A stretch of DNA of 64,000 nucleotides from NCBI GenBank assembly GCA_003707065.3, contig PPXM03000009.1, positions 186,001 through 250,000 on the forward strand, read 5' to 3'. Origin of the DNA: Trigonopsis variabilis. Its lineage: Eukaryota > Ascomycota > Trigonopsidomycetes > Trigonopsidales > Trigonopsidaceae. Below the pieces are notes generated by a model that did no database searches, was not told the DNA's origin, and saw nothing but the letters and a program-made list of their open reading frames with translations. Numbering within the stretch: the first letter of the stretch is position 1; the number at the start of each line of letters is the position of its first letter. Shown one piece after another: positions 39,310 through 45,298 of the stretch. A program made the translations under genes and the position numbers.

Positions 39310-40798
39310 GGTGAAGAACACTTGATTTTAGGTTCGAAGAATTTATACCTAAATGTGCATACCTTGGATCGGCCTTATGGTTCTTTATGTAGGTGCCATT
39401 CCGAGGACACGTGTGCAGACAATCACGATTAATCGATTAGGAATCGACCTTTCACCGTTCATTTCTGGTCAGCACAAGGGATTCGACTGGCAAAGAACCT
39501 GTAGATAGAAAACTCATCTGGATTGGATGCCTGTACTTCATAAGTAGCGTGCGGCGAGCTAAACAGTCCAAGGCACCTCTTTGATGGGAATATTGTGATG
39601 TAAGCTTTACAATCCATATTTTCTTTACTGCTCGATCTTGCAGGGACGGAGAGCACAAAGAGACATCTCTGCTGGAAAATGACAAACTTAGTCAGAAGGG
39701 CATTGAGCCGGAGACATCAGAGAAATGTCTCTTAAATGGTGTTGCAAATGTGTGCCACGCACGATATTGTCTGCGACTGTTGTAATTAGAAAGGAATAAA
39801 ATAAGCATTCTGACAACGACTCGAGAAGTACAGATAGGAAAAAATGGTATTTAAGTAGTACATATTCGGGAACTTCCTATTATCAAAATAAGTCCGTCAA
39901 AAGCCAACAGGTTATGAGTCGTGGGATGCTCCTAAATCGAGCTGCTAAGCCGGATCAAGATGATTTAGTGGTGAACCATGCATAGGTTTATGAAAATGAC
40001 CAACAGAACAAAAGGAAAGACCTACAGAAGATAAAATCTTCAGATGAACTGTCCCTACAATATCTTTCACCATGATATGACAGCGGGTACCCGTCATTCT
40101 TATGGGAAAGATTCAGAAATAGACATTTTGTCTCAGGATTTACAGAGAAATGTATCCTTAGCTCATCGCGAACTCTGAAGAAGCGGAACTCACATACATA
40201 TTGAGAAGAAATATGAGAGATACTGAATCTTAAAGGGAGCATCATGGACCCTATTGTAACCTATGGTGAATTAGCCTAGCCAGACTCTACCAAAAACGCG
40301 CAGAGAGCTACTCAAAAGCCATACAAAGGAAAATAGACTTCTACTCCTGAGAGATCTTTACCTAAAAAGCTGCATAATTTTGTCAAGATAATTACATACT
40401 GAGGGAAGGAAAATTATCGAAGTTGGGAAAGAGTAATCAGTTCTACTCTTGAGGAGTATGATGTGGCTCACATGATAGCACAAGACTACCAGCTGTGCCT
40501 TGCGAGAGGAAAACTAAAAATGTGTGGATTTGTGGAAACCATCAAAAGTGATCAGACGATCTAAAAAAGAGCCTGTGTCGTGAAAGTGCCAATCAAGTCT
40601 GGGGCCTCAATAGCTCGAGTAGCTTTATCAAGGCCACATTGATCAGACAAATTTGATTATCAGTGACAACTACCTCCAGCATATCGAAAGGATAAGATAA
40701 CGGCTGGTGTTGATCAAAGCAGATTATGATAGGACAAAAGACTGAAGTTGCTCTTAAAGGAGCCATTAGCAGAAAGGCCAACACTCTAAATGGAAGGT
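39310..40798. other. Gene-poor interval, 1.49 kb
   Basis: Between the 5-phosphatase 3' end and the homeobox relic. Minus-strand frames at 39452-39685, 39988-40245 and 40593-40859 have no recognisable content. I see no homeobox-like fragment here, no RNA gene and no clear repeat. Confidence 0.45.
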
Positions 40799-41150
40799 GA
40801 AACAAAGGAATCAGCCTCAAATGACCTATCGGCAGCCTTCCTCTTCTACTGGCCAACACTTATATGGCCGTTCGTATTTCAACTTTACCGTTCAGCTATG
40901 CCGTTGGTCTTTGTGCTTCTTATAGTTACCCTTCGGCTCCATGACCAAATCTTCCCGGTACAACAAACTGATATCTTGATGAAGGAATTTCTCAGGAATC
41001 ACTATCCAGATACCCAACGACGACAACCGCTTGGAATGACTCCAAGAAGAGTCCAGATCTGGTTCCACAATAGATCAATGGTGTTCAATCTCTGTTACAC
41101 AGCCCGCACCAGAGGGAACATATTAAGAATCTGATAGCGAAGGGAAAATG
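40799..41150 (+). pseudogene. Truncated inverted copy of the neighbouring homeobox gene
   Basis: Plus-strand sequence matching exon 2 of the homeobox gene that lies on the opposite strand from 41156. 40825-40950 matches the region coding MTYQQSSSSTGQHLY. A part of roughly 230 bp is missing, and 40961-41090 matches the homeobox nearly base for base (QQTDILMKEFLRNHYPDT, then MTPRRVQIWF). A 12-14 nt loss lies within the homeobox, and WFQNKR has become WFHNRS. The final match ends in the copy of the gene's last codons. It lacks the first exon and promoter, carries deletions that shift the frame, and is not expected to give a working factor. The homeobox part is far better preserved than its flanks, which hints at gene conversion. 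Confidence 0.85.
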
Positions 41151-41184
41151 CATTCTCAGCCATTTCTTTCGCTATCAGATTCTT
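41125..41184. repeat. Tail-to-tail inverted repeat joining homeobox gene and its relic
   Basis: AAGAATCTGATAGCGAA at 41125-41141 is repeated as its exact reverse complement at 41168-41184. These are the 3' coding ends of the relic and of the intact gene, separated by 26 nt. The two copies thus form a palindrome-like arrangement. Confidence 0.9.
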
Positions 41185-41972
41185 CTGTATTTGTTTCCCT
41201 ATGCTGCGGACTATGTAACAAAGGTTGAGCGCCCATTTGGGCTCGTTCACGTTCCATATTTTTGTAGTGTTGTCTTTTATTCTGGAACCAGATCTGGACT
41301 CTTCTTGGAGTCATTCCAAGCTGAATGGCGAGTTCTTGTCGTCGTTCGGTATCTGGATAGTGATTCCTGAGAAATTCCTTCATCAAGATATCAGTTTGTT
41401 GTGCCGACGCCCTGATGCGTCGAGAAGGCTGGGTCATTATCCGATCTTGGGGGCTAATTCCGTATTGGCGAGGATGTCGGAAAACATGTGCAGGTCTATA
41501 ATTCGATGTGGTAGATTGCGCGACATGATAATTGTTTGATGGCATCCATCGAAGATCGTGAGGGATCGCCGGCTCATATGCAGCTGGAAGATGAGACTGG
41601 TAATCTTCACGTCGACCTGGGTTATAGTAAGAGGACGGTTGAAAGACTGGCTGAGGGAGATGGGAAGATTGGGTCATTGGAGCCGGAGGGTAATTATAAG
41701 AAGAGCCGGGACCGGTGGGATAGTTGAAATACGAACCGTCATATAAGTGTTGGCCAGTAGAAGAGGAAGACTGTTGATAGGTCATTTGGGGCTGGAATAA
41801 GTTGGTTTCTTGGTTGTCGATTCGACTCTGACTTTGATGGGTCTGACCTTGGCTCTGTCCATAGTTTGGCCTTGGGAATTCGAGTTTTCTGTTCCCGGAA
41901 TCTGAAGGGAGATTTTGCAAATCTATAACATGAGTGCTCAGTTGAAATTTGATTGTTACCTTGATGATCCAT
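41156..41972 (-). CDS. Homeobox (non-TALE) transcription factor
   Basis: Exon 1 is 13 nt (41960-41972, MDHQ plus one base) and exon 2 is 41156-41922, with a 37-nt intron; 259 residues in all. The N-terminal 165 residues are Gln/Ser/Pro/Tyr-rich and probably disordered. The homeodomain lies at about residues 171-228 near the C terminus (DILMKEFLRNHYPDTERRQ, LGMTPRRVQIWFQNKRQHYK), with the invariant W-F-x-N-x-R and the Asn of recognition helix 3. A 3-residue TALE insertion is absent. The C-terminal tail is short and acidic. Fungal homeodomain proteins act in development or mating. The presence of two decayed copies and a CaaX peptide gene within 11 kb suggests a mating or sexual-development role, which is inference. 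Confidence 0.92.
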
Positions 41973-42815: not shown

Positions 42816-43381
42816 TATTATTAAAGACATCACTACCTATAGCGATGCAAGGGCACAAGTCTGGAAGACAGAAAAAGAACCTGTGGATACATCCCGAAAT
42901 TAGGGGATCCTCCTATATCTTGGAAAAAGAAGCAAACTACCAAGGCTTACTGTTCTATGGACGCTGATTGTATTGCTTTATCGGCCACATAACAATAACG
43001 TTATTTAGATAAAGCAGCTTATTCAAGAATCAAAAGTAGAGAAAAATGAAAAGAACCGTAATACATGAAGACAATCAAGACACCGTCAATGATAACATCG
43101 CGCCGTGATATAATAGACAAGAGAACCTATGTCACTGAAGCCATATAGATAAGCAGGACATGCATGTGAATGTACAACATTGATTGTCGACTAGAGCCTA
43201 GTGAACCTCTGTAACGAGCATGATCAGGCAGTAAACAATGTGTAACAAGGCACAACTTGAAAACGTCTGGGGTCGAACTGGGACATTGCCTGTCACCAAG
43301 GGACGTTGAGAGCTCACGACCGAGGTGACATCGAAGCGAGCAGCATCTTTGTCGTCTAACGCGATCGAGGCAGACAATTTG

Positions 43382-44707
43382 ATGGACAACACTACAACTA
43401 TTGATGTTGGATATCCCTTATTCACGGCAGGGTTTTCTAATGAGAACGTTTTAGTTGTTGCCGGTGGAGGAGGAGAAGGGCGGAACGGCGTACCCAACAA
43501 GTTGACTGCATTAAAATATCCATCGATAGTCCATAAAGGATATGAAGATGAAGATAGGGATGCCAGTGATCATGGAGAAAAGGTCGTGAAAGGCCCAGAA
43601 TTTCAATTTAGTGACTCTGCTGACTCCCCTACCAGCATGGCTGTATCCAAGGTAAGCAGACAGAAATAAAGATTCTAAAACAGGTTGCAGTCTTTAATCA
43701 TTGTTGGACAGAATGATGGAAAGCAGAGGACTTCATCGACGGGAGTAAATAATCATTTGAAGACGTTTACGTTGAATGACTCTAGGTATATCGATGTGTT
43801 TGGGGTGATGTGCTAATGAGAAGTCTTACCCTGGATAACGAAATATCAGTATTTGAGAAAGAAAATAACGAAGAAGATGATATATTTCAGGTGAGTAAAA
43901 CAAGACAGAGAATGGTGAGCTAAGACCCAGAAAATCACTGCTCTAAACTTAGATTGCTCCAAGTTAGCAATTTCCTCAGAGAAACAGCTATTTTTTCTGT
44001 CGTTACCTAATTATAAAGTCCTTCGTGGGCCTATTCGGCCAGAAGATGAAATTACGGATGGAATCTTTAGCTCGACTGACGACTCATTTGCCTTAGCGAC
44101 CAGCAAAGAGATTCAGATATATGATTCAAAACTGAAGATTAAGTCAACTCTCGCTAATTTCCCCGGACTAACGTTCCGTGGCGTCCGTTTCGATGAGTCA
44201 GGCTCTAAACTGGTCCTCGCTACGAATACCGCGAAGCGCACGGGTGCATACCTGTATAGTTTTGACATTTCCTCCAAGAAATCGACTCGCGTCGGTCTTC
44301 CTAAATCAGTAAAGGCAGTTACATCTTTGGATGTAGCAAAAGATTACGCTGCCATTGCCGGGTCAGATCTTTCTGTGGTGGTGGCTTCTATTAATAAGCT
44401 TCAAGTTCTCCATGTTTATAAAGACGTTCACGCCTTTGCAATCACCAAAGTTGCCTTTAATCCACAAGCAACCCGACTCGCCAGCGTGTCTGTTGCAAAT
44501 ACGGCGGTGGTTGCAAAGGTCCCCAAGGACGGTTATTGCCACAAAACCCGATCCACTATATTCTGGACTCTTATTTCGTTAATTCTTGTTATCCTCTTGG
44601 CCGTTCTATTTGAATACCTGGCGATTAACCGACTTGAAATCTCTCTGGTTGGCCGACTACGTGAACACCATGTTGCAAAGCTAGTTCCAACCCAATTGAT
44701 AGGATAA
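43382..44707 (+). CDS. SEC12: Sec12-like ER guanine-nucleotide exchange factor for Sar1
   Basis: WD40 membrane protein that starts COPII coat assembly by loading GTP on Sar1 at the ER. Exons 43382-43651, 43712-43785, 43824-43890 and 43931-44707 (introns 60, 38 and 40 nt) give about 395 residues. The first blade has YPLFTAGFSNENVLVVAGGG, the usual Sec12 opening including the GGGG loop. Later blades include ITALNLDCSKLAISSEKQ and DVHAFAITKVAFNPQATRLA. A single C-terminal membrane helix (IFWTLISLILVILLAVLFEY, about residues 336-355) is followed by a short lumenal tail. Size and topology fit Sec12/PREB. The exact start is moderate, as an additional upstream exon cannot be excluded. Confidence 0.85.
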
Positions 44708-44926: not shown

Positions 44927-45058
44927 TTAGGAGATAACGCACATCAAGTCGTAGAATCCAGGAGCTATGGAGTTAAATCGAGGCTCCATTCCATACTCAC
45001 GGGAAGCATAGGTAGTAGTAGAAGAAGAAGTGTTGGTAGAAGAGATTTCCTTGTTCAT
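44927..45058 (-). CDS. CaaX peptide, candidate farnesylated mating-pheromone precursor
   Basis: A 43-codon gene starting MNKEISSTNTSSSTTTYASR and ending IAPGFYDLMCVIS followed by a stop. The final C-V-I-S is a CaaX box with Ser at the last position, a farnesyltransferase-type signal. Size, Ser/Thr-rich leader and CaaX end match fungal lipopeptide pheromone precursors such as S. pombe M-factor (about 42 residues, CVIA) and basidiomycete pheromones. After farnesylation, removal of VIS and carboxymethylation, a peptide of about 8-15 residues ending in Cys would be released; the N-terminal cleavage site is not obvious. A TATA box lies about 33 nt upstream, and four palindromic HMG-type sites lie at 60-240 nt upstream. 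Function is inferred; the gene itself is well supported by this layout. Confidence 0.72.
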   Translation of the reverse strand: MNKEISSTNTSSSTTTYASREYGMEPRFNSIAPGFYDLMCVIS

Positions 45059-45099: not shown

Positions 45100-45117
45100 C
45101 CTTTTCAGCCTCCTCAG

Positions 45118-45298
45118 ACAATGCATTGTTTGGCTTGCTTATCAGCGAGGACTGAACAATGCATTGTTGAACTCATTGTTGCTCAGAGCTCCCCGGCCCC
45201 TCCATGTATTGTTGTTCCTTTTTGGTCCAAGCCTCACTGGGAACAACCTTGGGACAATGCATTGTTAAAGCACATTCGCATCTGAACAATGCATTATT
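45118..45298. promoter_or_regulatory. Array of four ACAATGCATTGT palindromes (HMG-box-type sites)
   Basis: Four copies: ACAATGCATTGT at 45118-45129, AACAATGCATTGTT at 45155-45168, ACAATGCATTGT at 45254-45265, and AACAATGCATTATT at 45285-45298 (one mismatch). Extra half sites lie at about 45173-45178 (ATTGTT) and 45208-45213. Each palindrome is two ACAAT/ATTGT cores head to head. ACAAT is the core of HMG-box factors (SRY/SOX-type, and related to fungal mating regulators). I saw no other full copy in the window. Confidence 0.7.

Follow-up and report, generated by a model that had tools for sequence, protein, structure and literature searches.

The M-factor precursor of Schizosaccharomyces pombe ends in the CaaX box CVIA, and to our knowledge its mfm genes are intronless. 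The mature pheromone encoded by mfm1-3 is given as YTPKVPYMC-farnesyl-OMe (PMC13099959). The fission-yeast M-box is described as the Mat1-Mc site that lies upstream of the Ste11-box in M-specific genes, and ACAATG or ACAATA words, picked by eye, are tabulated upstream of several genes, mfm1, mfm2 and mam1 included (PMC1693924, Table 3). In filamentous ascomycetes, a-factor precursors have been described from Sordariomycetes and, with 45-64 aa, from Leotiomycetes (PMC10569646). In Saccharomyces, sites of Ste12 have been assigned in one report to both mating genes and retrotransposon LTRs (PMC12712937).

Genes for lipopeptide pheromones are so short that annotation commonly overlooks them. The DNA analysed here, which we call the window, is a stretch of 64,000 nucleotides from Trigonopsis variabilis, part of contig C9 in a genome of 11.35 Mb and 15 contigs. 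It contains a short reading frame that was initially read as the precursor of a lipopeptide pheromone, and this reading is now supported by further copies in the genome and by a STE3-type receptor. The window gene very probably encodes a CaaX lipopeptide pheromone precursor of the a-factor/M-factor type; the predicted gene has two exons and a product of 31 residues. The complex I 49-kDa gene is present in this genome, which speaks against Schizosaccharomyces, a genus that, as far as we know, is without it.

As in S. pombe mfm1-3, several copies encode one peptide with an ...MC-CaaX end, and ACAATG/ACAATA words are found upstream, as in the mfm genes listed in PMC1693924 (Table 3). Unlike them, the window gene has the peptide core PPGFYDLMC, a predicted intron parts its leader from this core, and its promoter dyads are without the adjoining AACAAAG Ste11-box of the M-specific promoters. 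With the filamentous-ascomycete precursors described in PMC10569646 the window family shares a short product, a Ser/Thr-rich N-terminus, a single C-terminal CaaX and a common lack of annotation, but its members are shorter (28-31 aa), end in CVIS or CIIS where those precursors mostly end in CTVM, and carry Gly-Phe-Tyr where most of those have Gly-Tyr. Like the Ste12 sites of Saccharomyces LTRs reported in PMC12712937, a putative mating-type element is shared here by mating genes and retrotransposon LTRs, although in this case the dyad is of the HMG type, the repeat is copia-like and the lineage is another one. In a literature search that had most subscription journals outside its scope, and is weak evidence of absence, neither this peptide nor a leader-core intron in a CaaX pheromone of ascomycetes was found described, and the same holds for LTRs with M-box-like dyads.

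The reading frame and its sister copies

An ATG-to-stop ORF of 43 codons lies on the minus strand at 44927-45058 of the window, with the translation MNKEISSTNTSSSTTTYASREYGMEPRFNSIAPGFYDLMCVIS* and the C-terminal residues LMCVIS. The frame, its end and the TATA box of the original prediction were all re-read in the sequence, and the leader, which had been described as Ser/Thr-rich, has S or T at 11 of the first 19 residues. The features of the predicted gene are the following, where C8 and C1 stand for the copies on the contigs so named.

45099-45092, minus strand: TATA box TATATAAA, with 33 nt separating the box from the ATG
45001..45058, minus strand: predicted exon 1, Ser/Thr-rich leader MNKEISSTNTSSSTTTYAS and first base of a split Pro codon
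44965..45000, minus strand: predicted 36-nt intron GTGAGT...TTTAAC...CCATAG, a multiple of three, with the frame open
44927..44964, minus strand: exon 2, (P)PGFYDLMCVIS and stop; 30 of 38 nt the same as in C8, with 8 of the 8 differences silent
44930..44941, minus strand: codons of the CaaX box C-V-I-S; CVIS also in C8, CIIS in C1

The copies that the original prediction had left to a genome search were found. A degenerate search of the whole genome for GFYDLMCVI, allowing up to 3 mismatches, detected three places (the window gene, C8:211554 and C1:656473), against 1 for the reversed control, and these three loci encode the end GFYDL(M/I)C(V/I)IS. At the C8 locus the end, PPGFYDLMCVIS, is identical to that of the window gene. 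From the split Pro codon to the stop, 8 of 39 bases and none of the 12 residues differ between the two genes, all 8 changes being silent. When 8 substitutions were drawn at random 200,000 times, no draw left the peptide unchanged. The silent-only differences are therefore direct evidence that the encoded peptide end is conserved in that frame.

The third locus (656.47 kb on C1; L033:4468-4610, minus strand) encodes GFYDLICIIS, with M to I and V to I with respect to the main copies, so that the mature region is the same in C9 and C8 and has diverged in C1; in ascomycete CaaX pheromones it is common, though not universal, that more than one gene encodes the same mature region. Removal of a 56-nt intron from the C1 copy gives MNEEIAEILLVQLSASSPGFYDLICIIS, but 8 possible introns there leave a CaaX end, and no dyads of the kind described below were found upstream of it. 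The dyad-free promoter and the ambiguous intron suggest that this copy may be a relic, possibly decaying.

Protein searches were less productive. With the 43-aa frame as query, a search of the genome at E<=10 matched only the frame itself, and when the family was searched against 5.8 billion proteins a single match was obtained, at E 2.9, which was judged to be due to chance. This protein (P0009, 39 aa) ends in PGFYDLMCSM and was considered as a relative, but it is without a CaaX.

The CaaX end by itself is at chance level: the window has 304 frames of 25-60 aa that run from an ATG to a stop, one of them (the pheromone-like ORF at 44927-45058) ends in CaaX, and a mean of 0.67, with 2 as the largest value, was expected from 30 first-order random windows. 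This expectation, and the lack of a significant database relative, would agree with a chance ORF that is no gene. Such a reading is scarcely credible in view of the silent-only divergence between two unlinked loci and of the promoter dyads: the above-chance support comes from these dyads and from the C8 sister, which shares the 12 C-terminal residues and has 8 differences, all synonymous.

Predicted splicing of the precursor

When positions 44965-45000 are removed from the window gene, a product of 31 aa, MNKEISSTNTSSSTTTYASPPGFYDLMCVIS, is obtained. Among GT/GC..AG introns of 25-80 nt located up to 190 nt from the ATG, a CaaX end is left by a single one in the C9 copy and a single one in the C8 copy, and both are at the same position. 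The stretch in the window gene has a donor, a branch-like TTTAAC and an acceptor, as judged by eye, and such motifs are also present in the C8 copy. In the latter, removal of a 37-nt intron GCAAGT...TCGCAG gives MASNDLTTSTQTAIYSSPPGFYDLMCVIS, whereas without splicing the frame that starts with the ATG below the TATA box ends after 34 codons and has no CaaX. The start of this C8 intron with GC rather than GT is a point against the splicing model. In the window copy the read-through looked open because the homologous 36 nt are divisible by three, and an intron of such 3n length can mask the likely true product.

The number of bases identical between C9 and C8 is 35 in exon 1 (58 and 52 nt), 21 in the intron (36 and 37 nt) and 30 of 38 in exon 2. 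The identity of the intron stretch is proportionally not far below that of exon 1, so divergence alone is no marker of the intron. Statistics of intron motifs over 156.5 kb were not decisive either: one of 8 motif sets gave 24 occurrences in the 30-39 nt range, where random sequence gave 12.6 and reversed sequence 15, and the other seven showed small or zero excess. For this reason introns were read at conserved or open joins. Six of the seven joins tried were kept, and the first one of the WD-repeat gene (43652-43683), which read as 32 nt gave a stop, was dropped. The lengths found were 35 and 39 nt in myosin-I, 34 in RPC40, 40 in the WD-repeat gene, 39 in ALG10 and 43 in NHP6, where ALG10 and the HMG box of NHP6 were named through Pfam, and myosin-I, RPC40, NHP6 and the WD gene by eye. 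With six introns of 34-43 nt, an intron of 36 or 37 nt is ordinary in this genome.

These data also bear on a different form of the pheromone precursor, in which the unspliced 43-aa frame would give the actual product, or a further one, and the 36 nt would be coding, as their length and open frame permit. We consider this form unlikely: the homologous stretch of C8 has 37 nt and is out of frame unless removed, donor, acceptor and branch-like motifs (by eye) occur in both copies, and the size fits the six introns read in the genome. The mid-ORF stretch 44965-45000 is thus most likely an intron, as judged from the two copies. The original prediction holds for the pheromone gene as such and probably fails for its unspliced 43 residues, given that C8 needs the intron removed. 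Residues REYGMEPRFNSIA of the 43-aa frame would come from the 36-nt intron, and the predicted precursor then has 31 residues and the core YASPPGFYDLMC, in place of RFNSIAPGFYDLMC, the core first proposed within the longer frame. Both forms are below 100 aa (31 predicted, 43 unspliced) and have a single C-terminal CaaX, CVIS.

Promoter dyads, receptors and HMG-box genes

The promoter of the window gene carries copies of a dyad, AACAATGCATTGTT, which is a palindrome of two ACAATG half-sites arranged head-to-head (ACAATG.CATTGT). With up to 2 mismatches it was found four times in the 64-kb window, always within 240 nt 5' of the window-gene ATG (45117-45298), where the expectation for the window was 0.31 and 0 of 100 shuffles reached four.

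45117..45130, strand unspecified: dyad 1, one mismatch to AACAATGCATTGTT
45155..45168, strand unspecified: dyad 2, exact AACAATGCATTGTT
45253..45266, strand unspecified: dyad 3, one mismatch
45285..45298, strand unspecified: dyad 4, AACAATGCATTATT on the plus strand

The exact 14-mer is present at three places in the 11.35 Mb, one in the window-gene promoter and two in the C8 promoter, and the reversed control gave 0. The C8 promoter has four dyads with three spacings of 62, 63 and 62 nt, including the variant seen as dyad 4, in the opposite orientation relative to the gene, and has a TATA box, TATATAAAG, as well. M-box-like ACAATG/ACAATA words are present upstream of the TATA box, with four dyads per main promoter. 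The half-site resembles the fission-yeast M-box, a likeness that is limited to the half-site. Beside the dyads no AACAAAG Ste11-box was found in the 342 nt (C9) and 341 nt (C8) searched upstream, and the sole AACAAA/TTTGTT match in both stretches is at the ATG itself in C9. Dyads were likewise absent from the 329 nt upstream of STE3 and the 593 nt upstream of STE2. Taken together, the paralogues, the silent divergence and the dyads that the promoters share serve to identify a pheromone gene that has no relative to compare with.

A Ste3-type receptor, which the original prediction had put forward as a check, was found as the one PF02076 match of the genome (E 1e-86), in a 461-aa ORF from its ATG on contig C1. 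There is also one STE2 gene (E 9e-65), and the presence of both STE3 and STE2 marks an ascomycete with both receptor types. A search with the STE3 protein gave 7 matches among 7993 candidates scored, of which the best had 39% identity, so no close relative is found among the candidates scored. For this receptor, the farnesylated YASPPGFYDLMC would be a concrete candidate ligand.

Two other assignments of the locus were considered. A basidiomycete P/R locus was rejected because STE3 is on a separate contig (C1) and STE2 is present. In the case of a homeodomain MAT locus 3 kb away (41156-41785), the homeodomain resembles by eye the common WFQNKR type, and the neighbouring sequence a broken copy in inverted orientation. 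This homeodomain gene, on the minus strand, faces the apparent degenerate inverted copy (40790-41134, plus strand) at a distance of 21 bp, the pair occupying 40790-41785 of the window.

A small prenylated protein with an intracellular role, present in several copies and unrelated to pheromones, would also have a CaaX end, which is not exclusive to pheromones in the account of PMC10569646. This is very improbable for a product of 28-31 residues of which the C-terminal block alone is kept, with M-box-like dyads in both main promoters and a STE3 gene in the same genome.

For the pheromone gene, the ORF, the paralogues, the silent-only divergence, the dyads and the receptor genes were observed; that the gene is expressed and spliced, that the dyads are bound, and that the product goes through each processing step, is secreted and acts as a signal are steps that we infer. 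In the predicted route, the four head-to-head ACAATG.CATTGT dyads would be bound by a mating-programme factor with an HMG box, which would bring about transcription from the TATA box, and splicing of the 36-nt intron would then join the Ser/Thr-rich leader to PPGFYDLMCVIS. A farnesyltransferase would lipidate the Cys; loss of the VIS tail and methylation of the Cys would follow. A Ser at the X position of CaaX leads to farnesylation, and by this rule farnesylation is expected over geranylgeranylation. A cut in the leader, probably close to the Tyr that both main copies share, would give YASPPGFYDLMC / YSSPPGFYDLMC; this start of the mature peptide is a guess, set at that Tyr. After export of the lipopeptide, partner cells would sense it by means of the STE3-type receptor.

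With respect to the processing enzymes, no candidate of the ICMT family (PF04140) was found in the genome by a search that works exon by exon and was positive in 5 of 14 control genomes; the ICMT methyltransferase may be split by introns. The MAT alpha box (PF04769) gave no match in the genome in an exon-by-exon Pfam search run without a positive control. Splitting by introns or true absence would account for both negative results. HMG boxes at E<=0.001 were detected at five places, of which the best lies in a frame of 587 aa, and by eye no counterpart of Mat1-Mc was recognised among these five; the inspection covered the places at E<=0.001, below which the search listed another 5 rows up to E 10, including 3 at additional loci. 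The gene with the 587-aa frame (C1:228116-228343; L034:2409-4172, minus strand) has a box that matches SOX-2 (E 3.9e-9), and the HMG protein search gave 9 matches (best E 4e-21), none named Ste11; "Ste11-like" is a description by eye. A dyad with 2 mismatches, GACAATGCATTGTG, is located around 650 nt upstream of its ATG (L034:4827-4840). The protein is a candidate binder of the dyad, and self-regulation of the gene through its upstream dyad is possible.

The dyad in a copia-like LTR repeat and at other sites

In the whole genome the 13-mer ACAATGCATTGTT has 87 matches, which correspond to 84 distinct sites, and the reversed control has 0. Five of the sites are in the C9 and C8 promoters, one is at C3:213150, and the other 78 are in a copia-like LTR repeat, clustered on C1, C2, C4, C5, C6, C7 and C10 (L035, L037, L038, L039, L045-L048). 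In those clusters, each of which was retrieved and covered, all 79 of the 79 ACAATGCATTGT sites are inside an LTR-like repeat of around 290 nt, to which the window, C8, C3 and HMG loci gave no match. The repeat is nested and clusters within around 8 kb of contig ends, with the exception of C2, where it is around 100 kb from the end. Its dyads are often in runs at distances of around 22-28 nt, with three of them 5' of a TATA box in the copy measured, and a copia-type gag frame (PF14223, E 8e-24) adjoins LTR copies on C1. A looser 12-mer, with up to one mismatch, gave 149 matches against 8 in the control, and among the matches listed are the HMG-gene site and one site within the RPC40 coding region.

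It is conceivable, though we rate it below an even chance, that the pheromone genes and the copia-like family are both under the control of one mating-type HMG factor. The LTR dyads, often three, lie 5' of the element's own TATA box, so the element would be transcribed in mating cells, and the dyad would either have moved from the LTR to the pheromone promoter or have been captured by the LTR. That the same factor acts on both kinds of promoter is something we infer from the shared motif. If true, transcription of the retrotransposon would coincide with the very stage at which a jump would pass to the offspring. The near-exclusive presence of the dyad in pheromone promoters and one LTR-like repeat makes this a testable case of a mating-linked retrotransposon outside Ste12 and Saccharomyces.

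In the window itself, the frame GDPPISWKKKQTTKAYCSMDADCIALSAT at 42843-42992 (plus strand) looks by eye like a relic of a copia RNase H, with no Pfam match. On C3, from 213149 onward (L040:4150-4350), the sole other 13-mer dyad outside the LTRs precedes TATAAAAGG and a small ORF that reads MNKVEKLQISTDDIFIDVICKTTLVRI or, if spliced, has 32 aa. A CaaX end was never obtained from this ORF with the one or two introns tried, and it is possibly another gene of the same regulon.
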